Below are positions 6,301-64,000 of a DNA stretch of 64,000 nt, piece by piece. The stretch's first letter is position 1. The number at the start of each line of letters is the position of its first letter. The notes under the pieces are model-generated. The model was not told where the DNA came from. It searched no databases and saw nothing but the letters and a program-made list of their open reading frames with translations. A program made the translations under genes and the position numbers. Source of the DNA: Dermatophagoides farinae (lineage: Eukaryota; Arthropoda; Arachnida; Sarcoptiformes; Pyroglyphidae); the NCBI RefSeq assembly GCF_024713945.1, contig NC_134685.1, positions 992,001-1,056,000 of the forward strand, in the 5' to 3' direction.

Positions 6301-7611
6301 GAACAAAATGATTACATAATTTGTATGAATTTTTTTTCTGGTTTTATCTTTGGTTGTTGTTATACACAATAATAACAACACAAATAACCGACGCTACCGA
6401 TGATGATGATGATGATAAATGAATTTTTCATTCATTCATCCATTATTTGTTACATAATTTTTCTTTTTTGTAATTTTTTTTTCACTCTTTTTTTTAATAA
6501 ATAGAAATTCTGATTTTCTGGTATTTTTCTAGCGTGATCATCATCATCATGAGGATAATCGTTGGTTTTTTCTTCTCATTGCATTCACTAACACCCACAC
6601 GGACACACACACAGACACAGACACAGACACAGACACCAAATTTCATACAAATGCAACAAAAAAAACCAGAAAAGAAAACATTCTATTCAAAAAGAATACA
6701 GGAATGGAGAAAAAATCTGGTTAGATTTTTCTTCTTTTTTTTAATATTCATTTATTATTCTGTTCCATCATTATCATTCTCATCATCATCATCATCATTT
6801 TGATTATAGTGTTTTATTTTCAGAATATAAAAAAGTAAAGTATCAGGTAGAAGAAACCTGCAATATTTACAACAAAAAAAAAGTTCATCATCAAAATTAA
6901 CAACAACAACAACAACAAGATCGTGCCCAAAAAAAAGACACTTGATCTCATATGATCCACACATATGAATGACGTAAGTGTGTGGGATATATACATTGAG
7001 CGGCAAGATTATTATTTCCTTGAACAAAAGTATGAAAAAAAATACAGTGTTAATTAGTCACATGTACTATATTTATATATATATGGGTATATGTAATATA
7101 TACACCAGGATGATTGGAATTCAGACAACAACAACCAGAACGAAACAGGAACCAAAAAAAAAAAATCTGGATATATCCAGGAACAAAAACAGAAAAAATT
7201 ACTAATTAATACTTTTTTTCCGCTGTTTTCATTATTATATTGTTATTAATATACTTTCGATCAGAAATAGTTTTCAACAAAAAATACACACACACACACC
7301 TTAATACATGGATTTTTTTTTTGGTGCATGTTTTTTGTTGTTGTTGTTTTTGTTCCGATGACAACAACAACAACAACAAAAAACGGCGACGATGACGACG
7401 ACGAAAACAGGTAAAAACAAAATAATAACATTGAACCGAAAAAAAAGAATCTAAATAGGGTGATGTGATGACATTATTATGTAACAAACAGGGATAGAGA
7501 ATCCCAAAAGAATTTTGTTGTTGTTGTTGTTTTTTTTTTGTTGATAAAATCTCAACATATACAAATGGAATGAAAAAAAACAAGGAAGAACAACTGAAGA
7601 ATTTGGAAACC

Positions 7612-7643
<32 letters not shown>

Positions 7644-10600
7644 AGGTTCTTTACGGCCGCAGGGACAAGAGCTTGTGATTTTTATTTTGATTCGAATTTT
7701 TGTTTTCTACTGTGTTTGTATACTGTAATAGGATCATTTATTATTATTTTCTTTTTTTTTCACTGGTAATTTTGATATTTGACATCAGTGAAAAAATATT
7801 CTCTTTCTCTCAGTGTAGGTATGTATGTGACGAGTGTACATCGATTAACCCATCGACTACCGCCATAGACAGAAAAAAGGTCGCAAAATAGACCAACTTT
7901 TCGAATTTTCATGTGTTTTTGGCGCATATATGAGCCGCTGGTCTATTGTGGAAAATTTGAGTGGCACACATATGTGCCGCTTGGTAGTCAATGGGTTAAC
8001 TAACTGTGTGTAACTGAGAAGAATATTTCAACAACAACAAAAAAATGATGTCAATAAAAAAAGGGGTTCTGGTTTTAATTTTCTATATATGAACTATGAT
8101 AATAATATTAAACTTTACACACACACACACACATACACGTATGAAAAAAAATTCATAAGATTCACATGGGAAATGTAAAAGAATATTCATTTCATTCACT
8201 TTTTTCTTTTCTTTTCACATGAAAAACATATTATGTGTGCATGATGAGAGAAACATTTTTCTCTCTCTCTCTCTTTCTCATAATACCACTGGATACCATT
8301 GTATTCTTGTATATTCTTATTATTATTATTATTCTTGTCATACCAGTGGTCGTTTCTCATGGAAACAATCAAAGAATGACGAAAAAAAAATGTCAAAAAA
8401 AGTGCATAGGTATGGGTGTTATTTAGGTTATATATTGGAATTCATGTTGCAATTTTTCTTTCTTTCATCATCATCATCATGTGACATCAAGAAAAGGCGT
8501 TATTTCTATACTGTTGAATAGATCATCATCATCGTCATCATCATCATTCAAGAAAATAAAATAAGGTAATAATGGGCGTCAAAGAGGATAAAGAGAATTT
8601 TTTCCATTCATTCATTCATTCATTCATCTTGTTTTTCTGTTTGTTTGTTGTTAATAATAAAACCAAAAAAAAAATGGTGATTGGTTGAATGAGTTATTAT
8701 TACAACAACAAGCCATGTCTCTAAAGTTTATCTTCTATCCACGCCTTATATTCAATGAATTTTGATTTCTTTTTAACTTTTATCATTCTCTTTCTCTCTG
8801 TATATGTGTGTTGACAACAATATGATCAAATTCAATGATTATTTTCAATGTGCAGTAAAATAAACATTTTGAAATTGGAATTCTGGATAAATTCTTTCAT
8901 CATCAAATCGTTATCCAAACAGAGAGAAAAACAATGTCCATGTTGTAATTAAAAAAAATAATGATAATATATTGCTATTGCTTTTATCAATATTCTATAT
9001 TTTCATTTTTTTTCCAATTCTCAACATCATCATGAATGAATGAAATATGAACCAGAAAAAAATGATTCTGAAAATCAAAAACTATGGCCCATCTCTTACA
9101 GTAGTTGGTATATATATTAGCATCATCATCATCTGGGCCATGTCCTGTGTGTATACTTTAATGATGAAAAAAAATTTTTTTTTTTTTTTGGTCCAGAATT
9201 TTGGCAGCAGCAGCAACAGCAGCAAAAACAAATTATTCCACATGATTTAAAACGAAACAAACAAACAAACAAAAAAAACGATTAGATGATGATGATCATC
9301 ATCATAATGATGATAATAATAGGAGAGTCATCATCATATGACTAGATTTCATTTTTTTTGTATATGGAACAAAAAAAAAATTATAATTTCCGTTATAAAT
9401 TCCAACCATTTTATATGGATTATATTTTTTTTTGTTTGTTTGTTTGAAACTTTGAATCAATGATGATGATAACAAAAAAAAAACACCATTGATATTAATG
9501 TAAATCGAATGGACGAAATAGAAAAAAAAATTGCAATGGTCAGAATTTGGGATATCGAAATAATTTGGTATACACACACACACGAATATACAGAATTCAT
9601 TTATGAATTCGAGTTATTCGTGCGTGCATTTTTGTTGAAAAAAAAACATAAAGCAAGAATGAAATGAAAAAAAAAATTACTGAAAAAAAATGTGGGGAAA
9701 AAAGAATCGAAATGATGATGATGATGATGATGATGAACCAGAACGGCTAAAAATGAAAATGAACCATAGCTAAAATGGAATTACAATGGACATAAGCGTT
9801 TATATATCGAAAAAAAAGATGGAAAAAAACAAAATAAAAAAAAAATTCTAGAACAAAGAATATATAGAGGTGTATATGAATTCTGTATACGAAAAAAAAA
9901 CGTCCCGAGAGATAGATAGATAGATAGAGTGAAAAAGGAAGAAAGAAGCAAGAAGCAAGAAGCCAAACAAAGAGAAAAAAAATTGTGAACAAACCATCTA
10001 TCTATCTATCTATCTATTCATCTATCTAGCCAATACATACACAAACATACAAAGTATTCAGAGCGAGAAAAAAAAACCTAATTGCCAACAACAATATTAT
10101 CATTAGGGTCCAGAATCAGTCATCCAAACACCAGAGGAAGAGAGAGAGAGAAAGAGGAAAAAAATGGACAACGAAAATATATCGCACTCTTCTTATGGTT
10201 TTTTTTCTCTCATTCTTTCTTTTTATATTTTGTTTCGTTTCATTTAGTTTCACACTATTTCATCTCTCTTTCTCTCTCTGTTTAACAATATCTACTTTAT
10301 TCTGGACCAAACAACGATGATGATGATGATGACGGCAATAGGATACATGTTTTAAAAAAAGGCGACGAGTCAATCGTTTTGTCGTCGCCCAGAACAAAAA
10401 TCATCATCATCATCATCATCAAATTCGTTGGCACCCGTATATTTCACTGAAAATGAATCTAGAATAATGATAGCCGAAGCGAAAAAAAAAAGAAATGACA
10501 AAATTGGCATAAATAAGTTGAACAAGAAGAAAAAGGAGGAGATAGGTTGGTTGGTTAGTTGGTTGTTAGAAGAAAAAAAATCATATGAAATTGACAAAAA

Positions 10601-13600
10601 AAAGAACGAAAAAAATCCAATCCAAAAAAAGAGAAAAAAAAATAAATCATCAATATGGATTGGCCAAATAAAAAAAAACTTAACGAGAAGAAATTTCCGA
10701 TTGATGGCTAGCGGGCAGAATAATATTATTAATGAATAACTAAAAAAAAAATTTGTCCACATTTTATCAAAGAATATTCTTTATTCTCCCCTAGCAGTGG
10801 TTGTGGGGTTCGTAATACATGTATATCATGGATATCATTGCGACAGAATTTGTCTGTTTCAAGGGAATTTATTATTTCTGGGATTTTTTATTGTTGTTGT
10901 TGTTATTGCTGTTGCTGTTGTTGTCGTTCGTCAAACCCAGACGCGCGTAATCATTTACACCAATTTTTTTTTTGCTTTTTCCCTTTTCACTGATATGTAG
11001 AAATGGTTGGATGGGTAATAGAAAGAAAGCGCTTAATTATTCATCATCATCATCATGATTATATGAATGTATGAATGGTCCATAGAATTTGTCACACATT
11101 TATTCATTCATTTAGTTTAGCATATCATCACCATGGCACCATTTTTTGTTTGATTGTTTGAAAAGGGATAATTCAAACAACAAAACAAAACAAAAAAAAA
11201 ATTTTTTTTTTCTCTTGACAAACCTAATATGATGAAAAACAAAATATTATATGGAACAAATCAGTGAAACAGAAAAACAATGAAAGGGAATCATTACAAA
11301 ATCATAAATGCAATTGGCCAAACTAGAAAACAAAAAACAAAACAAACAAACAAACAAAAAAATTCAAACCCAATTCATAATTCGTATGAATCTTGAGCTC
11401 ATTCTATCACTATTTGTATCTATAACAGTATTATCACCATTCATTCATATCATCAACCAAAATAACCAAAAAAAAAAAAATTTGAATTCTATAAATATAA
11501 TAAACATGGCTATAGCCATATACAGAATAATCAGAATATATTCGAATGTATAAAAATATATAGATGGATGAATAATTCAAATAATACAAATGAATATGAA
11601 CAAACAAATCAAATGATTAAAATAACAAAACAAAAAACAATAGCCATATTCATTCATCCATCCATTCATTCATCTATCGAAAACAGTAACCAAAGAGAAA
11701 AAAAATATGGTCCAAAAGTAAAAAAGACAATATATAAACCAGACAATCGAGAAAGAAAAAAAAAGGATAAAACGCACTTGAAATCAAAATGACAGTTACT
11801 CTCTCTCTCTCTCTCTCTCTATGGTTGGGTTGGGTTCTCTATGCGACAAATTCTCTGTCTGTCTATTTGTGTGTATGTTTATTTATTATTTATATATACT
11901 GATTCATTGTATTATTGAATGGGAATGATGGAGAAAAAAACCACACCACAGAATAAAATGATTTCAAATGAATCCGATTGGAAAAGAATAAAATGATGAT
12001 CCATAGAATCCATATGTGAGGATTTGGTATCCAGACAGACACACACACACATTCTTCCATGGAATAGATTCATTTTTTTCCGGTATTCAGTAGTAACCAA
12101 TCATTGTGTCAACATTATTCGTAGCAATGATAAAAAAAAGTTTTCATTTCAAATAGAAAAAAAAATAAATTTAACAAAATGAAAAATTACATATGTGGAC
12201 GACAGTGATTAAGTGGACTGGCAACTCTTTTTTTTCATTTGTTTTGTTTGTTTGTTTGTTTGTTTGTCCAATTCAAAATAAATCCACATTATCAACAATG
12301 AAATTACAAATGGTCATAATAATATAGTGATAGTGGTGAAAGAAACAAAAATCTAATTAATCTTACATCATTAATCAAATTGGAATAGAATGAAAAAAAA
12401 TAAACATCTGATTAACCATTTTGTTATAAAGATGACAGCTACACATCACACACACACACTAACACACACACATGGTTACGATTCTTGATAAATTCTTACA
12501 TTTCAAAATTCAATCAAATTTGATTTGGTTGACTTGTTTTAATAACTTGTTTTTTGTTGTTGTTGTTGTTTTCATTTATCTATCATAATAATAAAAAAAT
12601 GACACCTTCACATTTATACCTTCACATACAGTGAAAAAAAATATATATGGGTCAATTGAGTGGTTCGAATTTCAAATTTTTTGTTTTCTAGATTCACTAA
12701 GAAGAAAAAAAATATATGACAATTCGACAATCAATAAAAAAATGAAATGAAATGAAATGAAACGAAACCTTAGTAGAAGAAAATGAATGAATCAAATCAA
12801 TGGGAAATGGTTTTTTTCTTTCTTTTCACTTTTCCATTGGAAACATTGAAACATAGGGGCCATTTTTTATGTTTCAAACGAGAAAAAAAAAATGGAATAG
12901 AAAAAAAAATCAAAATAATGGCATTCGAATTATTATGATAATAATGGAAAATGATTGAAAAAAAAGAAAAAGAAGAAAACATATAAATATACACGGTGGT
13001 GAATGAAAAAAAAAAGAAAAAAGAAAAGAAAAAAGAATGGAATCGACACAATTTGAAACAATTGTAACGACCATCACCACATAGAAAGAATATACAAGTA
13101 TATTTGGACTTTATTTTTTTTATATTCTATATTCTTCGTGTTTTGGAATATGGAATTCAATTTTTTTTTGTTCTTTCTATCATATTTCATAATATGGTTT
13201 TTCACTCTGTCTCTCTCTCTCTGTGTGTGTGTGTGTGTGTAAGAAATGATCTAAGAATAAGAAAAAAAACAAAAAAAGCATATCATTATAGAATTTCTAT
13301 AAAGAGAGTAAATGATGATGATAATAATAATAATAATGGATTGGATCGATACAAATATATCCATAGTACATACACACACACACATAGATAGATAGATACA
13401 TGGATATAGAATTGTAGAAAACGCATATTTTGGTTCAATTTTTTTTTTCAAAGCAATATCTATGTATATTTATTGTTATTTCTAGCCCATCATTATTTAT
13501 CATCTATTTCTATCAGTTATTATTCAATGCAATTTGAAATCATCATCATCATCATCATATATTTATATTGTTAGATAGATAGATAGATAGATATATTTCC

Positions 13601-54846: not shown

Positions 54847-56425
54847 TTATTTTCCAATACAAAAATCTTTGAATAATACATCGAGTACATGTTCAGTGGT
54901 AATATCACCAGTCAAACATCCAATATGATATGATGCTTGACGAATATGAAATGATGAGATGGCCAAATCTTTATCAAGATTTTTCATTGTTATTGCCAAT
55001 TCTTTAGATGTTTCTGTTAAATGCATTACATGTCTTTCATTGCTGAATGCAATCAAATCTTCATTCGTGCCGACATTATGTTCAATTTTTTGTTTGAATT
55101 GTTGAATAAAATCATCGAATCCTTCGCTGTTTATACAACTCACATAGATTGGCTTTGACATTTGATTTTTGGCCAAAATTGATGCCAATTCTTGACGTTT
55201 ATCACTATTGGCTACCAGATCTATTTTGTTTACCAGAAATAATAATTCCGATTCAGATTTCTTTTCAATAATTTTCTTCAAATGATCACTTATAATTAAT
55301 TTTTTATGACGATAAACTTGGTCAGCATCCACTACCATAATAATTAGATGACATTCTTTGGCTCTTTGAATGGCTTTCTGAATTCCTTGTCGTTCGATTG
55401 GATCAACATTAGAATGATCAGCATCTTTTATACCGGCCGTATCAGCTATACAAACACAATTTCCATCAATATCCATCCATGTTTCAACCACATCTCTAGT
55501 GGTTCCACTAATTGGCGAGATTATTGAAACATCTTTTTCGGCTGCAAAAAAATCATTAGCGTGAATATAACAGATTGCATAAATCTTACAGACTTAATTT
55601 ATTGATGAGACTACTTTTGCCAACATTAGCCTGACCAATGATGGCCACATGTAATCCATCTTTGATGAAATCACTTTTCAATTTAGTATTGGCAACATGT
55701 TGATCGATTTCTTTTTTTAAATTACAGATATTTACATTCAATTCTTTCATTACATCATCGCCGATCATTTCCTCTTCGCCGAAATCAATAAACGCTTCCA
55801 TATGAGCCATTAATTTAATTATTTGTTCACGCCATTGATTAAATTTCAAATGTAACATTCCGGACAGGCCACTAAGTGCACGTCGTCGTTGATTTTCTGT
55901 ACGTGCATTAATTAGATCACGAATACCTTCCGCTTGTATTAGTTGTAGTTTTCCATTCATCAAAGCACGGCGAGTAAATTCACCTTCTTTTGCTGAACGA
56001 CAGCCACGAATATTGCCAATGACTGTAAGCATTTTACTTATGACAGCCATTGATCCATGTATATGAAATTCACAAAGATCTTCACCGGTATAACTTTTTG
56101 GCCGTGGAAACCATAATGTCATTCCTTTATCAATTAGTTCATTGGTATTCGGATCAACATAATCATTGAGACAAGCTTGACGAGGTTTAGCACGTATATG
56201 ATTGGCTTTACCATTGGTAATTGAATCGATCACATTTAATGTCTCATCACCAGATACTCGTATGACAGCAATAGCACTGCCAGAATTTCTAATATTTGTA
56301 GATAATGCAAATATCGTTGAAGCTGATGATTCGAATGAACATTTTTGTATTAATTCAATTGTTTTGATAACGGTTTTATTGTGAATTTTTAAATTTCGTA
56401 ACATTTCAACGTATACGTTCGGCAT
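54847..56425 (-). CDS. GTPBP3: Mitochondrial tRNA modification GTPase GTPBP3 (MnmE)
   Basis: With MTO1/MnmG it installs the xm5 modification on wobble uridine of mitochondrial tRNAs. Exons 55594-56425 and 54847-55541, about 508 residues (human 492). I start at ATG 56425 (alternative 56404); the frame stays open upstream to 56533 without an ATG. The basic N-terminus suits a mitochondrial presequence. The MnmE N-domain opens STIFALSTNIRNSGSAIAVI; SYTGEDLCEFHIHG and EGEFTRRALMNGKLQLIQAE follow. G-domain: G1 GQANVGKSS, G2 GTTRD, G3 DTAG, G4 NKID. The C-terminal DFCIGK retains the conserved Cys of the C-[ILV]-G-K motif. The exon join is odd: the consensus donor GTAAGA at 55584-55589 is out of phase, while an in-phase GTCTGT lies 4 nt upstream (intron 55542-55593, 52 nt). 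Confidence 0.93.
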
Positions 56426-56656
56426 GCATGCAAACACAAGATAACTTGGTCTGATCTTTTGCACATGTTTCCACTTTATACCTTGTTGGTTGTTTTCATT
56501 GTAATAACTGGCTTTATTTTGAACTTCGGACAAATATAAGCTGGCGAAACCATTGCCAGCAATAATCGAGGAAAGCCAACTATGGGCATCAAATGAAATT
56601 GTCAGCTTATGAGATTAGCATACCTAGACATGTCAATCATCTGTTGACCGGAAGCA

Positions 56657-57043
56657 ATGCACTCCCAATATTTGGGCACGGTGAAAAGTATCATCAATCG
56701 CTGGATAGATGATGATTTGGTTACAAAAAGATGGTTTCAAGCAATGACAAGTGAAGAAAAAAATGAATTAAAAGCATCGAAATTAAACAAAACACAATTG
56801 AGTATTTGGGATCAACGTCTTTCTTCGATTAAATTTCCAGAAGATGTTCTTAAAGCGATGCCACAATTATCTCAAAACAGAAGTATGAAAAGTCTAGACT
56901 TTGAATTTCTTTTATTTTTTGATTTTGGATGTTTTGAAGGGATGGTTGAAAGAGGAAGATACGAAAATTTCAAACAACTGGCATTCATTATTTCGAAATT
57001 ATCATCACGAATGATTTCAAAAATGACTGGTATCATTTTATGA
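56657..57043 (+). CDS. Short unrecognised gene (hypothetical protein)
   Basis: Divergent from GTPBP3, with about 230 bp between starts. Open from ATG 56657 (an in-frame TGA lies just upstream). A likely 57-nt intron 56883-56939 (GTATGA...TTTTGAAG) joins exon 56657-56882 to 56940-57043 in phase, giving about 109 residues. The alternative is to read straight through for 128 residues. The first part, IINRWIDDDLVTKRWFQAM and KLNKTQLSIWDQRLSSIKF, has normal composition rather than repeat-derived sequence, and a good AATAAA follows at 57131-57136. No domain, signal peptide or membrane helix recognised; a small mitochondrial or nuclear protein is possible but not shown. Upstream exons cannot be excluded. 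Confidence 0.5.
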   Translation: MHSQYLGTVKSIINRWIDDDLVTKRWFQAMTSEEKNELKASKLNKTQLSIWDQRLSSIKFPEDVLKAMPQLSQNRSMKSLDFEFLLFFDFGCFEGMVERGRYENFKQLAFIISKLSSRMISKMTGIIL

Positions 57044-57281: not shown

Positions 57282-58162
57282 TTTTTCAGATCTTCTCGAG
57301 TATTAGGTTTGGAATGCGCAACCAGACTTAGTATTCAAGAAATATTATATTCATTTTTCATGCATCAAAACATTTTCCAAGATTTCTGCGATGAGCGGGG
57401 GTCAACTATTTATTTGACATTTTCAACAAACATTTGTAAATACCCGAATTGTGATATTTCAGCTTTTAATCAATTATTATGAACATGTCATATCGGCTCA
57501 TGAAATAATCAATTCTGGTTCTCGATTACCCACGTAGCCAATATCAACAAACAATTACCTAATTTGTTACAAACTATCATCAGAATTTAACGTAAGGGTA
57601 TTCAACAAATCATATTTTCAAACAAATCTAATGAAATATATTTATTCTCATTTCTATATTCCAGTAACAATTCTTATATCATTTTAAACAACGAAAATGA
57701 AAAAACAGAAAGAAATCCCGTTCGAAAAAAATATAATCATCATCATCACCTTTTTCGTGTTGTTTTACCATATGTTTATATCTATGATTATTAAAATTAT
57801 TATTCAACACATAAATAATATTGTTTTTATATCAGTATCCGGTTTTTTCAATTGTTTGGTAAATAATCATCAATCAATCAATCAATCAATCAATTTTAAT
57901 TCACTAATTGAATACACAACCAAAACATATATGATATATTTAATTTATTCTCAAGATAATTTGCAACATTATAATTAATAAAAAAAAATAATAATTATAA
58001 TTAATTGTATACAAAGTGTGTTCAGATTTTTTAAGCCATAATAAAGGATTTTCATAATTATTTGAACCGATTTTCAGATTCAGACGTCCTCAGACATTTT
58101 CAGATCCAAAAAAAATGTCTTTCCGAATGATTTTCAAACTTTCAGACTTTTCTTTTCGTAAA
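57282..58162. other. Gene-free degraded DNA
   Basis: AT-rich sequence with few microsatellites, in contrast to most non-coding DNA in the window. Motifs around TTCAGA recur between 58020 and 58150. I see no conserved coding segment; the texture is that of old transposon-derived sequence. Confidence 0.4.
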
Positions 58163-58378
58163 TTTACACCAACGTTGTTCACATTGAACATCGGAACGAT
58201 CGGAAAAATGTGTCGCAACTTGATACTAATCTTCATTATATTTTTCCACTAATCGTTTCAATTTATTATCCTCTTCTTTTTACCATTGTCCACGATTAAC
58301 AGATTTTTTTAGACAAATTAAGCCAATATTACTTTTCGATATTTGAATTGTATTCAATTTTCGTTCCAATAATTTATC
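58163..58378 (-). pseudogene. Decayed Myb R1 repeat (pseudogene fragment)
   Basis: Minus-strand translation gives NRGQW-stop-KEEDNKLKRLVEKYNED-stop-YQVATHFSDRSDVQCEQRWCK. This follows the Myb R1 repeat closely: first Trp, acidic EED, helix 1, the position of the second Trp (now TAG), and the recognition-helix motif RSDVQCEQRW including the conserved Cys and last Trp. Two in-frame stops replace a Thr position after the first Trp and the second Trp. An upstream open part (from DKLLERK at 58378) lacks recognisable similarity. Homology ends after RWCK where VLNP would be expected. The intact Myb gene at 60.1-63.3 kb on the same strand lacks exactly this repeat, so this may be its displaced R1 or part of a dead paralogue. 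Confidence 0.75.
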
Positions 58379-58419
58379 TTAGAACATACTTGGATTCCTT
58401 TACCCTTCAAGGAAAATTC

Positions 58420-58666
58420 CTATTTGACTTTGACGGGACAGTTGATCCAGTTGATCTGTTTCATTTTATTTTTGATTTGTGTTCTAGACACAGATGCTGA
58501 TTTCAGCAATTTATATGAAATTTTGGGCCTAAACCCTTCCACGATATCATGGAAAATAGGTCTGGTGGTGAAATTTGAAATATGTTCACACCATGATTTT
58601 CGCTTCATGCCATACGGGCTTTTATATTTTTTTTTCTTTGATAGTTTGGCCAATTCTTCTTTGTAG
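58420..58666 (-). pseudogene. Possible fragment of a non-LTR retrotransposon
   Basis: Minus-strand frame reads YKEELAKLSKKKKYKSPYG then KRKSWCEHISNFTTRPIF and HDIVEGFRPKI. The Lys-rich helix, a SW-x-x-x-I motif and a following aromatic/Ile pattern recall the linker between endonuclease and reverse transcriptase in R1/I-type elements. There are no catalytic motifs, so the assignment is weak. It lies directly upstream of the decayed Myb R1 repeat on the same strand. Confidence 0.3.
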
Positions 58667-59340
58667 AGGCTAAAGAAATTAATATTTTGTAAAGTTTATA
58701 TATTGGTAGCAAAAATTATTATTTATAAAAGTATTCTTTAAAACTTTTTTTCAAGTATTTTTAATCAAACCATTGTCACAATCATCATAAGAATGAGGTA
58801 GAAATATTGTTGAAACCTATGAACAAACACAAAAAAATGGAATATAATAATTCACAATCATTATTAACTAAAATAAAAATAAAAAAGGATATATTGAATA
58901 TATCAAACATTGTACATTTCATTTAACATGCCTGGTTTTTATGAAGTCCAGTGCCTGAAATTCTTGATGGGAATTTGCTATCGAATAAGCAATATTCATG
59001 TAATTATTTGACATTCTGATTGATTGGTAAAGAATGTACTCCGGATGATTGAAAAAAATTTATTGACATATTTAAACAATGAAAATCAACCGAGTTGATC
59101 GAAAGAGAGAACACGAGTGTGGATTCTTGGTGTGTGTGTGTTGTTTTAAATGTGGAAGTAAATTTTTTCGTGGTTTTTGTGTCATTCATAAACTTTGTTC
59201 CCATATATATTTTGCTGCAGCATGCATGCACATCATCGTCATCATCATCATCAGTGGATTTGTATGGTAACGCTGTTTATTGACTGGATATTGAGTAAAT
59301 CATTTTTGATTATTTCCTATTTTTCCCAAATGGGTAGAAT
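58667..59340. other. Gene-free stretch between retroelement remnants
   Basis: AT-rich with few microsatellites (a short ATC run near 59230). Short open frames here show no domain. Part of it may be upstream copia sequence too degraded to recognise. Confidence 0.4.
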
Positions 59341-59640
59341 TTCTATAGACCAGATATTCTATTTCTGGAAAAGCCCAATAGTACAACAATCAAAATTGTC
59401 AAACGTATTTAAAAGGTACTATTGATTATAAGCTAAAATTTGGTGGTTCTTCATCTTTATCGTTCAGTGCTTATTCCGATGCTGATCTTGGTGGTGATCG
59501 AGAAAATCGTAACTCTACAACTGGCTATTTGGTTTGGTTAAATTGACCAATTATTTGGAAATCTAAACAACAACGATGTGTTGTAGATAACACACGTGAA
59601 AGTGAATTTATTGCTGCTCAAAATTGTTTAATTATTAATA
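59341..59640 (+). pseudogene. Ty1/copia retrotransposon remnant (reverse transcriptase end and RNase H)
   Basis: Broken copia-type pol. One frame gives FYRPDILF and IKIVKRI (end of the reverse transcriptase region). After a frameshift the next gives YLKGTIDYKLKFGG, SAYSDADLGGDRENRNSTTG, YLVWLN-stop-PIIWKSKQQR and ESEFIAAQN, which is the copia RNase H layout (YSDAD, STTG, WKSKKQ, ExEF/Y-A). At least one frameshift and one TGA stop make it non-functional. No long terminal repeat is identified nearby. It lies between the decayed R1 repeat and the 3' end of Myb. Confidence 0.85.
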
Positions 59641-60098
59641 ATCACAATAGAAATCGTTGCTTCTAAAAATAACTTCAAATTCCATATTTTAGTTTTCGTG
59701 TATACAATATATATTTTGATTTGATTAATTTCATCAAAATAAAAAAAAAATTTCATTTGTTTTTTTCAATCAGCAAAACAATGTTTAGAATTACTAACTG
59801 CGTGCATTCATATGATGGTTGAATAACTTTCACCATATGAACCAGGATTTTATCGAAAATTTGAAAAGAATTTCGTTTTTATTAAAGGTAAAGAATGTTT
59901 AAAAAAATGGGCAAGAAAAAAATATGAAAACAATATATAATGAAAAAAACAAGAGAAAAATATTCTTCAAAGTTTGTTTGATGTGTGATTAATTCAAAGT
60001 AAAAAAATCGATTCGAGTGATTCATTTGAAAATTTCAAATGTATTTCGTCAGTTGATAATTATTATCGAATGATTTTACTGTTTTTTGTTGTGACAGT
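59641..60098. other. 3' flank of Myb / degraded DNA
   Basis: AT-rich sequence downstream of the Myb stop on the minus strand. TTTATT near 59877 is a possible minus-strand AATAAA for Myb, about 220 nt past its stop. No supported coding sequence. Confidence 0.4.
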
Positions 60099-63000
60099 TC
60101 ATACGAAGAAGGGAGCGATCGGTGTACGTCGTTGTTCCGGTAAACAATGAAGAGGAACATTGTTTTTCGATTGAAGAAAAATTCGCGCTTGTTTCGTCAC
60201 CTCTTTCTGTGCGGCTGTTTGTCCGGTTGCCAATAAAAACCATTGGTTGTTGTTGGCCACAATATTGCTGGAATGTTTCAGTTCCATGTTCGATTCGTTG
60301 TCCGATGTGATCGGACTGATTGCCATGGTTGTTTCTGATTCCGAATTGACTTGGTTCGAGGAAAAAAGACGCATTCGAGATCTTGTCGTACGAAGTTTTC
60401 GTCGACGACGAACTCTGCTCGGTAATGTTCTTGTGAATGTTGCTGCTGTTTCGCTGCTGGTAGTATTGGTCATCTTTGGTAAGATGTACAATGGCTTCTT
60501 TGGTCGAGGTTCGGTTGTTGTGTCCGATTCTGGTATTGCTGCAGTTTGAAATGGGATTTCCGGTCCCATATTGACCAATTGTATGGGGTAATAAGCTGTT
60601 GTGTCCACTGACGATGATGGCATTGTCAATGTAATTATTGTCGATGTATTTGGTTCCACTGATTGATTCACGTTTTGCGTCTATTTAATGATGAGAATAG
60701 ATCAATAGTTAGAATCATCTCTAATTGAACATACAGGTGAGACATGCAGTGCAAAAAAGCAAGACACTTATGGTGAAGGAAATGAAACTTTTTTGTCTGG
60801 ATACATAGTGTTGAGGAAAGGAATCATCATCAAGTTTGCTTGAAAACCGATCAAAAATTAGAATGTGCAACCCTTGTGTGCATTGAAAGGACAATTCAAT
60901 GTGTGTGATTGTGCAAAAATAAAAACAAAACTGATATATATTGCTGGTGCCGAAACAAAACAAAAACAAGAAAAAACCAAAACTTACAATCAATGGATTG
61001 TCCATTCAATGATGTCGTTGTAGATTTGATTAATCTAATTTGATCATGGTTTTGATTGGTCAATAGGGTTGTTGTATTATTATTATTATAATGGATTGTA
61101 TTGAAACTATCTGTATTTATGTTATTATTGGCTGTTGTCATTATTGCTACTATCATCATCAGATATTACATAATTATAATTATAGTCATTATTAAATGAA
61201 TCATTATCGTTTGTCAATGGCAATGACATTGGAACATTATTATGATGTTCCAATAATTGTTTGGCTGCTAACCCTTCCCCAACACTATGCATTTGATTAT
61301 TTATATATGACTAAAGTGTTTGTTGTATAATAAAATTGAGAAAAAAATTAAAAGCATAACGTTTAAAATAAATCAAAGATTTGAATCGAAAAATGGTTAA
61401 TTATTGATGAAATGATGAATGTGTTGATACTTACAATATCTTGATTATTGGATTCGAATGGATTGGATATCACAGAAATATTAGACATTGGTGTCAATGG
61501 TATATAACCATCATTATGTCCATTGTCCATTATCGATGCATTATTGTTATCGATAGCCATCGAGTATGGTGTACTACTGTTCAATTGACCTTCTGTTTTA
61601 TTGCCAATCAATGATGATGATGGTGGTGGTCCCATTTGACTAATAATACCATTGTTATTATTATTGGCTACTGTTGGTGATGTATGGAGGATATTCTTGT
61701 TGACTGTTAATACTGCTGGTTGCTTTTTCAAGAATGTTCCCACACCGGGTGACATACATTTATTGGGTGATATTGTCGATATGACGAATGATGATTGTGG
61801 CGAGAATAATTGATCATCCTGAATGAATGATTTACTCTGAACAAATGGTGGTCATGTCAATCAGAATTAGAATATATTATTATGGAAAAATCTTACCGGT
61901 GTTTCAAATAAAATTTCCTCGCTATTCGATTCGATTTGTATTTTTTCATTCGTTTCTGTGGTCGGCGAACGAACACCTGAATTGATGAATGGGTTGCTAC
62001 TGTTACTTAGCATTACATCCATCATTGCATACTGTTTATTTCGATTTAATCGACCATGATTCATCGTTGTTTTTAAAGGTGAAACATTCTAAAATAATTA
62101 CAGAATTAAACAAGAAAATGGAACCACACACATGAAGGTTACCTCTTTATTTTTCGATTTAATCATCATAATCGAATGATCCGATTGTGATGGTGGTGTA
62201 TAGAGGTATGGTGTTGATATTGAATTCGTAATAACTTTAGATGATATGGGCGTATCAAATTGTAACGGAGTGAATGGTTTTTTTCCTGACGATTGATGTT
62301 CACCATTATCAGTCATATTCATTTTGATTGGCGAAATGAATGATGAAACATTCGACATGTCTGGCTGTGTTTGATATCCACTACTGAATGCATCAATATA
62401 GCAGCTAGCATCAGTGTTGATTCGTTGTTGATGATCATCTTCATTGATCAGGGTTGAATTTTTAGTGGGTGAAATCATCAAACTACGTAATGGTGATGAT
62501 TTGATGGCTGAAACAAGATCATTAACATCCTGTATTTCGGATAGTTCACATTCAAGCATTTCTCTTTGGCTCGAATCGAAAAGATCGCTAAAATCATTTA
62601 AATCGTCGTCGGTATTTGACGTACTATTTACAGCGTTTGTTTCATTATTGTTGTTGTTATTCGGCACATTTGTGATCGAATAAATCAACGTTGATGTGAC
62701 GACTTTTTTCTGCCGAAAAAATAAACAGCTGATTAGTTTTTATCGATTTAAGAATAGTGTTTATTACCATAGGACTAGTTGTTGTTGTTGTTGTTAAAGT
62801 TGAAGTCTTTTTCTTTTTAATACGTTTCTTGAATTCGGCAAATGGGATACCTTCTTTCATAGCTTGAGCTTTACGTTTCAATGTAGAATTCCAATGATTT
62901 TTGATTGCATTATCAGTTCGACCGGGTAATAGCTTGGCAATCTTTGCCCATTGATTGCCATGTATAGTATGTGCTTGTATGATCGTTCGTTCTTCCTGAT

Positions 63001-63291
63001 CAGTCCATGCAGATTTCACAATATCGGGATTCAGATGATTATGCCACCTTTCACGACATTGTTTACCGATTCGACCGTCCAAATATTTCGCTATGATTGT
63101 CCATTTTTTTGGGCCATATTTTTTGACCAATTCCACGATTTTTTCATCCTCCTACAAAACACAATTAAATTATTGAAATAAGTAAAATTTGTGATTATTA
63201 CTTTTGGTGTCCAAGGTCCTTTAATTAGTCTAGGACAGAGGTCGGCAACCTGCGGCTCTTTGGATGTGAAGATGCGGCTCTTTAGTTCCAT
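60099..63291 (-). CDS. MYB: Animal Myb transcription factor with R2 and R3 repeats; N-terminus derived from a transposon end
   Basis: DNA-binding regulator of the c-/B-Myb family, related to Drosophila Myb. Exons: 63202-63291, 62768-63151, 62143-62709, 61897-62088, 61435-61836, 61151-61310, 60988-61110, 60099-60658; about 825 residues. R2: [40 protein letters not shown] and [11 protein letters not shown]3: [40 protein letters not shown] and HWNSTLKRK; the structural Trp residues and the R2 Cys are present. Low-complexity linkers follow, with NVSPLKTT and SP/TP sites. The last exon has [15 protein letters not shown] and TKQARIFL, matching the conserved Myb C-terminal block. R1 is absent. The ATG and the first ~19 codons lie in a hAT terminus; alternatively a short exon starts at 63229 behind an AG. 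Two joins are uncertain: a 40-nt intron at 61111-61150, and the last acceptor at 60658. Confidence 0.88.
63202..63291 (-). CDS. MYB: First visible Myb exon: chimera of hAT terminus and R1-R2 linker
   Basis: Thirty codons open from ATG 63291-63289: [19 protein letters not shown] from the transposon end, then [11 protein letters not shown], the normal R1-R2 linker and start of R2, ending on a GTAATA donor. PRLIKGPWT aligns with the NPELVKGPWT-type linker of other Mybs, and the similarity stops exactly at the 8-bp sequence beside the hAT terminus. Whether translation starts here or the region is spliced from a more distant first exon (AG at 63230-63231) is unresolved. Confidence 0.5.
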
Positions 63292-63300
63292 ACGAAAATA
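63236..63300 (+). mobile_element. hAT-type transposon terminus (solo left end)
   Basis: Begins CAGAGGTCGGCAACCTGCGG, a typical hAT terminal inverted repeat, and carries GCGGCTCTTT twice, the kind of subterminal repeat hAT transposases bind. It is GC-richer than its surroundings. The neighbouring 8 bp GTCTAGGA (63228-63235) would be the target duplication, but no matching right terminus or second copy is seen before 64000, so the element is truncated. It abuts the Myb coding sequence. Confidence 0.65.
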
Positions 63301-63439
63301 TTATTTTTTTTATCAAAAAAAAACATTTAAAAATCGTTATGACTGATAATCGTTCTGATATATTGTTGGATATTACCGCGAGTATTTTTATATTAAAATA
63401 TAGTATGTGCCAACCATCGCGTACACATACCACTCAAGT

Positions 63440-63560
63440 ACAGTTAAACCCCGTTTAGTGCTGATTCGATATAACGCTGTTTTTTTAACAATGTTACATT
63501 CTATATTAAGGGCTAAAAACTCGCTTAACGCTGTATGATTCGCTATAACACTTTTCGTGT
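63440..63560 (+). mobile_element. pogo/Tigger-like transposon end, degraded
   Basis: Starts CAGTTAAACCCCGTTTAGTG after TA and continues with ATTCGATATAACGCTG, then TCGCTTAACGCTG and ATTCGCTATAACACT. Repeated TTCG-x-TATAACGCT units after a CAGT-x-AAACC start are the pattern of Tigger/pogo terminal sequence. No matching opposite end, so truncated. Confidence 0.45.
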
Positions 63561-63596
63561 TTTTTTTTGAATTTTGAATGATCATCATATTTATCA

Positions 63597-63786
63597 TCAT
63601 ACTATATATAAAAGAGTAAGCCAATTAGTGTCTGTATGTATACATCCAACAGTAGGAAATGCCTTTGAGCAGTGCTTTTTGAGAATGCTTTCAGCGCCAT
63701 CTGTCGGTGAAAGGTTTTTGAAGTGAGTGAAAATATGTGTCTGTGCATGAAACGATATATATTATAGCGAAAATTGGATTAACTAG
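63597..63786 (+). mobile_element. Possible short non-autonomous Helitron
   Basis: Starts TCATACTATATATAAAAGAG with a TGTCTGTATGTAT run behind it, contains GCGCCATCTGTCGG, and ends AACTAG. A TC start, TATATATAAAA and a CTAG end recall arthropod Helitron termini. No clear terminal hairpin was confirmed, so this is tentative. Confidence 0.3.
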
Positions 63787-63829
63787 TAATTTTTTTTTTA
63801 TTTAATTACAAACAAATATTTTTTTTTTC

Positions 63830-64000
63830 TCAATCAATTTTTTCAAATTTAGGCATAGTAAGATGTGTTTGTTGACGATTTTTTCGTATCAAATCCATAT
63901 AACGTTCATATCTTTGTTGTTTTGTTTCGGCCTGTGGAACATTATCGATTGTATACAAAATATTCTGTACATATGATTGTGGATCAAATTCTTCGGCTTC
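63830..64000 (-). CDS. Last exon of an unrecognised gene, cut by the window edge
   Basis: Minus-strand frame open from 64000 to a TGA at 63830-63832, 56 residues: FDPQSYVQNILYTIDNVPQ, AETKQQRYERYMDLIRKNR and TMPKFEKID. The sequence is balanced and charged, with no repeat-derived composition, which supports real coding, probably a coiled or helical C-terminus. No family recognised. It sits just upstream of the transposon debris and Myb on the same strand. Confidence 0.55.
   Translation of the reverse strand, partial: EAEEFDPQSYVQNILYTIDNVPQAETKQQRYERYMDLIRKNRQQTHLTMPKFEKID

Follow-up and report, generated by a model that had tools for sequence, protein, structure and literature searches.

A permuted, R1-less duplicate of Myb at a putative transposon end in Dermatophagoides farinae, with signs of selection, past or present

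The Myb gene in the window

We analysed a stretch of 64,000 nucleotides from the Dermatophagoides farinae genome, hereafter the window (C9:992001-1056000; the assembly comprises 62.4 Mb in 22 contigs). Its minus strand carries a Myb gene with the repeats R2 and R3, modelled in seven exons. The first exon (63202..63291) is a candidate, its ATG lying within a transposon end. Exon 2 (62768..63151) encodes most of R2 together with R3, and is followed in the gene model by exon 3 (62143..62709), exon 4 (61897..62088) and exon 5 (61435..61836). Exons 2-5 are open throughout, and the splice dinucleotides of the six modelled introns are intact (12/12, the acceptor of intron 6 having been picked to fit the frame). 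Upstream, the 3' end of a neighbouring gene on the same strand (63830..64000, with a frame open to C9:1056609) lies 594 bp from the Myb copy. By eye, this neighbour resembles mS38/AURKAIP1, with a match to COX24_C that stayed below the cut-off (E 0.051).

The reading frame breaks in exon 6 (60988..61310, minus strand). Relative to a second Myb gene on contig C10, exon 6 has an 8-bp deletion after 61144, which creates a stop at 61125-61127, and the product predicted by the gene model from the ATG at 63291 would thus be 606 aa long. The same deletion is predicted to take away the C-terminus as well, unless exon 6 is skipped. Exon 7 (60099..60658, minus strand), which covers the C-terminal region and a putative MuvB-binding motif, is out of frame with exons 1-6 and has a further 1-bp deletion near its end; it is followed by a 3' UTR or flank that aligns with C10 (59620..60098, minus strand). 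In both copies, exon 7 has two possible acceptors 22 nt apart (window 60658-60680, C10 local 8091-8113). CAG fits the inclusion of exon 6, while the upstream TAG (TAG|ACG) fits a join of exon 5 to exon 7 with exon 6 skipped. Exon 7 also has a second long frame, of 202 aa in the window, which we considered and rejected; the CAG|TGG acceptor joins exon 6 to the W...Q frame, and is preferred because the C10 model is then uninterrupted over 973 aa.

An intact parent gene on contig C10

Contig C10 contains an intact Myb with a seven-exon model of 973 aa, including R1, R2 and R3. Three stretches of it match PF00249, and a single exon holds both R1 and the start of R2. The protein encoded by exon 2 (R2R3) is 98% identical between the window copy and C10, with the same modelled splice sites in both. 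Searching the genome with the R1R2R3 protein gave seven matches, of which two are exons on C10, two fall in the window and the other three are distant Myb-like loci with 34% identity. The window gene is a dispersed, intron-bearing, DNA-level duplicate of the intact C10 gene. The first-pass annotation of this locus, made from the letters of the window, had proposed that the animal's normal Myb lost R1, but the normal gene is the one on C10. A processed retrocopy was also considered and rejected, as the window copy keeps all six modelled introns.

A search of genome contigs for an outgroup Myb gave two loci of 28 stretches; both are catalogued as belonging to bacterial MAGs, and neither is labelled a mite. 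One of these, DYPS01000047.1 (L009, positions 1946-2259), is assigned to a Desulfosporosinus MAG; it encodes an R2R3 Myb with 67% identity, and is probably eukaryotic contamination.

Circular permutation and the displaced R1 repeat

Aligning the two loci with blastn gave three blocks, all plus/plus. C10 local 7028-10739, from the 3' flank to R2, matches window 59620-63235 (92%); 10745-10958, containing R1, matches 58160-58373; and 11157-11301, from the 5' flank, matches 58737-58862. The pieces in the window are hence ordered R1, 5' flank, 3' flank and R2, in one orientation. This is the arrangement expected of an eccDNA-type permuted duplicate, with C10 10745-11301 followed by 7028-10739. The copy is circularly permuted: its sequence is opened between R1 and R2, and R1 together with a piece of the 5' flank stands after its 3' end.

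The displaced R1 relic (58160..58373, minus strand) lies past the 3' end of the Myb copy in the same orientation as the gene. It is 95.8% identical to C10 and has two in-frame stops. Further along, a relic of the 5' UTR or flank (58737..58862, minus strand) is 81% identical to the C10 sequence just upstream of the Myb ATG. Through the permutation, the rest of the gene lost its connection to R1 and to its original start and 5' flank. The genome search with the R1R2R3 protein matched R1 only at C10 and at window 58145-58378; as the first-pass annotation had claimed, no R1 was found between the gene and the neighbour's stop at 63830. We further looked for a hidden R1 exon both at 63236-63830 and in the 20 kb flanking the window on the right, and rejected this candidate after neither blastn of the 30-kb region against C10 nor the protein search of the genome detected one.

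Repeats adjoin the permuted pieces and occupy much of the gaps between them. A repeat stands where the N-terminal coding part stood (58374..58736; 58357-58744 matches C3:4332595 with 87% identity), another (57799..58152) ends 7 bases left of the R1 relic, and a repeat fragment that is Copia RNase H-like by eye (59361..59618, plus strand) abuts the 3' flank. Other repeats are found at 58868-59014 and 59252-59329, as well as beyond 63236.

A circle cut at the R1/R2 boundary and then reintegrated elsewhere would leave this permuted order, and we infer that a reintegrated circle is the simplest mechanism. The copy resembles the eccDNA-mediated duplications described in PMC7188851 in its circular permutation, the pattern left when a circle is opened and inserted at a new site. 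Unlike those duplications, the copy described here has a hAT end at the cut, and the circle's own junction holds other sequence, partly repeats. The same order could arise from a tandem duplication with later deletions, for which hAT alternative transposition is a possible route (PMC3744419, in excerpt), but not from a hAT insertion on its own.

The transposon terminus and a candidate start codon

A terminus with the first bases CAGAGGTCGG occupies 63236..63342 (plus strand), with one end only present. It begins at 63236 with CAGAGGTCGGCAACCTGCGGCTC, and the homology of the Myb copy to C10 stops one base earlier, at 63235. The first-pass annotation was thus correct that a transposon end directly abuts the Myb coding sequence, and the cut of the permuted copy coincides with this end. 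The terminus has two relatives elsewhere in the genome (C6:1128495 and C8:4424382), aligned over 63245 to 63342, whose starts we read by eye as CAGGGGTCGGCAACCTGCGGCTC / CAGGGGTCGG, compared with CAGAGGTCGG in the window. The terminal sequence is common to these two copies with one base changed (CAGRGGTCGG), which we take to be a hAT motif; the family name hAT for the terminus at 63236 is likewise our assumption.

Insertions of this type are expected to be flanked on both sides by an 8-bp target duplication. The candidate target site, the 8-mer GTCTAGGA (63228..63235), is also present and uninterrupted in the C10 copy. Exact matching on both strands of the 30 kb examined found GTCTAGGA once, with no second copy, and likewise no far hAT end. 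Of the other copies and the right end proposed as a genome-wide check, two relatives were thus recovered and the far end was not found within 30 kb. Duplications produced by alternative transposition of maize hAT elements (PMC3744419, in excerpt) share with this locus a hAT end at the breakpoint and a rearranged gene copy, but differ in that here neither a second hAT end nor a second target copy was found within the 30 kb examined.

The terminus was earlier suggested to supply the gene with an ATG and an open frame. An in-frame ATG is indeed present at 63289-63291, opening a frame of 19 residues that is joined in frame to 11 Myb residues; of these codons, the terminus contributes 18 in full and two bases of the next. 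To judge this, we counted how often an in-frame ATG precedes any stop in control sequences, which was the case in 359/2000 dinucleotide shuffles of the 107-base hAT end (18%) and 565/2000 random 107-mers from the window (28%). The hAT-borne ATG and open frame are not more than expected by chance. The junction also creates a pyrimidine-rich CCTAG|A, a possible acceptor for an upstream exon, in which the last base of the AG is 63230 and the exon would begin at 63229. The first-pass annotation had named an AG near 63230 as a conceivable acceptor for an upstream R1 exon; the C10 model has no splice site at this AG, R1 and R2 sharing an exon there, although its new use in the window copy is possible. 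With a narrow donor filter, a raw count gave eight upstream ATG-donor combinations that fit the phase, of which four meet a stop at the join.

These results bear on the proposal that the animal's normal Myb had its R1 replaced by an inserting hAT element, which also supplied a transposon-derived N-terminus. The copy does lack R1 and does sit at a transposon junction, with a hAT-type terminus and an in-frame ATG, as that proposal would have it. However, the R1R2R3 gene on C10 is intact, only one hAT end turned up within the 30 kb examined, and the open frame does not exceed chance. In addition, the R1 piece lies beyond the opposite end of the gene together with part of the 5' flank (58160-58862), so a larger rearrangement took place. 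We therefore regard a simple insertion as a very improbable cause of the R1 loss.

Selection and decay

To investigate whether the copy has been evolving as a pseudogene, we compared it with neutral expectations for the window (C9) branch since the duplication. These counts come from a single C9-C10 alignment, in which changes are not polarised by an outgroup. The noncoding parts have diverged by 5.9%, and 15/18 of their indels are not a multiple of three; the corresponding values for exons 2-7 are 2.8% and 2/11. Exons 2-5 (1539 bp) contain no frameshift indels, against 10.4 expected on a neutral branch (P=3e-5); depending on the choice of reference region, the expectation ranges from 8.7 to 11.5 (P 2e-4 to 1e-5). 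They also have 17.5 nonsynonymous changes counted over both lineages, compared with 34.7 expected on the neutral C9 branch alone (P 7e-4 for 17 changes, 1.4e-3 for 18), and no stops, compared with 2.9 expected (P 0.053). Overall omega is 0.27 (bootstrap 0.16-0.45), with exon 2 at 0.05 relative to C10.

Within R2R3, two residues differ between the copies (I/V and S/A). Polarised by alignment with c-Myb and B-Myb, I/V is derived in the window copy and S/A in C10, leaving one change on the window branch, where 6.6 would be expected if it were neutral (P 0.01). Counted across both lineages, P is 0.10 for R2R3 and 0.03 for exon 2.

Gene conversion, as an alternative source of the exon similarity, is disfavoured because the synonymous divergence of the exons (0.16 for exon 2, 0.047-0.081 for exons 3-5) is near the noncoding value of 0.059.

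The R1 relic gives a different picture. Its 71 codons, the last of which sits at the breakpoint and may be non-homologous, have nine substitutions: three synonymous and six nonsynonymous (including the two stops), against a neutral expectation for one branch of 5.3 changes that are nonsynonymous or create stops. The relic decays about neutrally. Expressed as the neutral share of the copy's time, the 95% bounds are at most 26-34% for exons 2-5 and at least 37-49% for R1, the latter with every R1 change attributed to the window copy. By these bounds, the window copy was probably constrained for part of its life while R1 was unconstrained, although contrasting R1 directly with exon 2 or exons 2-5 gives a marginal result (P 0.06-0.15). 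For exons 6-7, neutral evolution and weak constraint both fit the data: there are two frameshifts, where 6.1 are expected (P 0.06), and omega is 0.85 in exon 7 and 0.42 in the portion of exon 6 that precedes the deletion.

Most duplicates that lose their 5' flank and first exon die, and it could be argued that this one never had a function after the duplication and kept its frame by luck. Its known 5' flank and most of its first exon are lost, and R1 decays at the neutral rate. Such a duplicate should nevertheless have gathered 8.7-11.5 frameshifts in 1539 bp, where there are none (P 1e-5 to 2e-4), and should not show the deficit of nonsynonymous changes in exons 2-5, making this explanation improbable. 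The copy does not look like a plain pseudogene.

A second possibility is that the copy worked until lately, with or without R1, then lost its C-terminal frame and is now decaying. The 8-bp frameshift in exon 6, which may mark a dying gene, the 1-bp frameshift late in exon 7, the stops in R1 and the detached 5' flank would all fit. This sits less well with exons 2-5 being wholly open and their splice sites kept, and with bounds that permit neutrality for about one third of the time at most; we consider it possible, though not the explanation we favour.

We instead lean towards an R1-less, v-Myb-shaped Myb paralogue, a permuted duplicate whose exons 2-5 have been under selection for most of the copy's life. 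Purifying selection would have acted on R2R3 and the centre of the protein during most of this period, and, judging from counts made without an outgroup, probably overlapped in part with the neutral decay of R1.

Comparison with known Myb proteins

The junction at 63235/63236 is real and the normal gene is intact elsewhere; the window holds a Myb duplicate that is permuted, lacks R1 and carries a signal of selection, whether past or present. Three features go beyond the first-pass annotation: the frameshifting 8-bp deletion in exon 6, the intact C10 gene and the R1 relic at 58160-58373. The annotation's likening of the copy to v-Myb agrees with what we find: R2R3 are kept, and R1 and, in the predicted 606-aa product, the C-terminal part are gone.

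Animal-type Myb proteins are defined by three tandem Myb repeats, a central proline-rich hinge and a C-terminal MuvB-binding domain (PMC7225089, in excerpt). The window copy matches the intact C10 gene, which is of this B-Myb/Drosophila Myb type, in exon 2 (R2R3, 98% protein identity) and in its modelled splice sites. It departs from this type in having only R2R3 in tandem, with the R1 relic detached and interrupted by stops, in its detached N-terminus and in the C-terminal frame broken in exon 6. In Drosophila, according to the same source, Myb requires its C-terminus to bind MuvB and to rescue adult lethality, and the C-terminus by itself suffices for both. In the modelled protein, exon 7 has by eye a W and a Q spaced as W607 and Q618 of Drosophila, while K606 and D617 are absent; searching this C-terminal region returned no Pfam match and no relevant PDB match.

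The specific contacts of Myb with DNA come from R2 and R3, and R1 does not contact DNA (PMC533864, in excerpt). The same paper also states that c-Myb cut to the end of R1 as in v-Myb is sufficient to transform chicken bone marrow cells, and that v-Myb additionally lacks a C-terminal part. Like the v-Myb proteins of AMV and E26, the window copy has no R1-bearing N-terminus, retains R2R3 and is predicted to have lost a C-terminal part; however, v-Myb is viral and lacks most but not all of R1, whereas the window copy is a host duplicate beside a transposon end (PMC533864, in excerpt).

The copy most likely yielded an R1-less Myb that would bind Myb sites through R2R3. Its translation may have started at the hAT-borne ATG or in an exon spliced to CCTAG|A at the junction. 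Lacking both R1 and the tail, such a product would occupy Myb sites but not bring MuvB to them. In the simplest case it would compete there with full-length Myb; otherwise it would act independently at the same sites. That it is a natural, selected v-Myb-shaped paralogue beside full-length Myb, with a transposon-borne start and serving as a built-in competitor or constitutive Myb, is a more speculative proposal that we hold to be rather unlikely.

Most invertebrate genomes are said to have a single three-repeat Myb (PMC8854648, in excerpt), and the role of R1 was called elusive in 2004 (PMC533864, in excerpt). Among the papers listed by our literature searches, there was neither a mite Myb duplicate nor an R1-less animal Myb. 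If a second, R1-less copy was indeed kept by selection, it would be a natural test of R1's role, the question raised by v-Myb. It would also illustrate that one rearrangement at a transposon end can sever a regulatory repeat from a transcription factor and leave the DNA-binding core usable.

Other genes in and near the window

Beyond the mS38-like neighbour, a DNA topoisomerase gene lies divergently on the opposite strand, with a Topoisom_bac exon at L014:1621-2982. At 56648-57043 (plus strand), an open frame starting PEAMHSQYLGTVKSIINRW is transposase-like by eye, with nothing above the Pfam cut-off. A TrmE/MnmE-type GTPase (GTPBP3-like) is encoded at 55586-56614 (minus strand), with TrmE_N, MnmE_helical and MMR_HSR1 all above the cut-off. 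The window also encodes a group 2 allergen-like protein, with Der p 2/Der f 2 as its best matches (E 3e-30).
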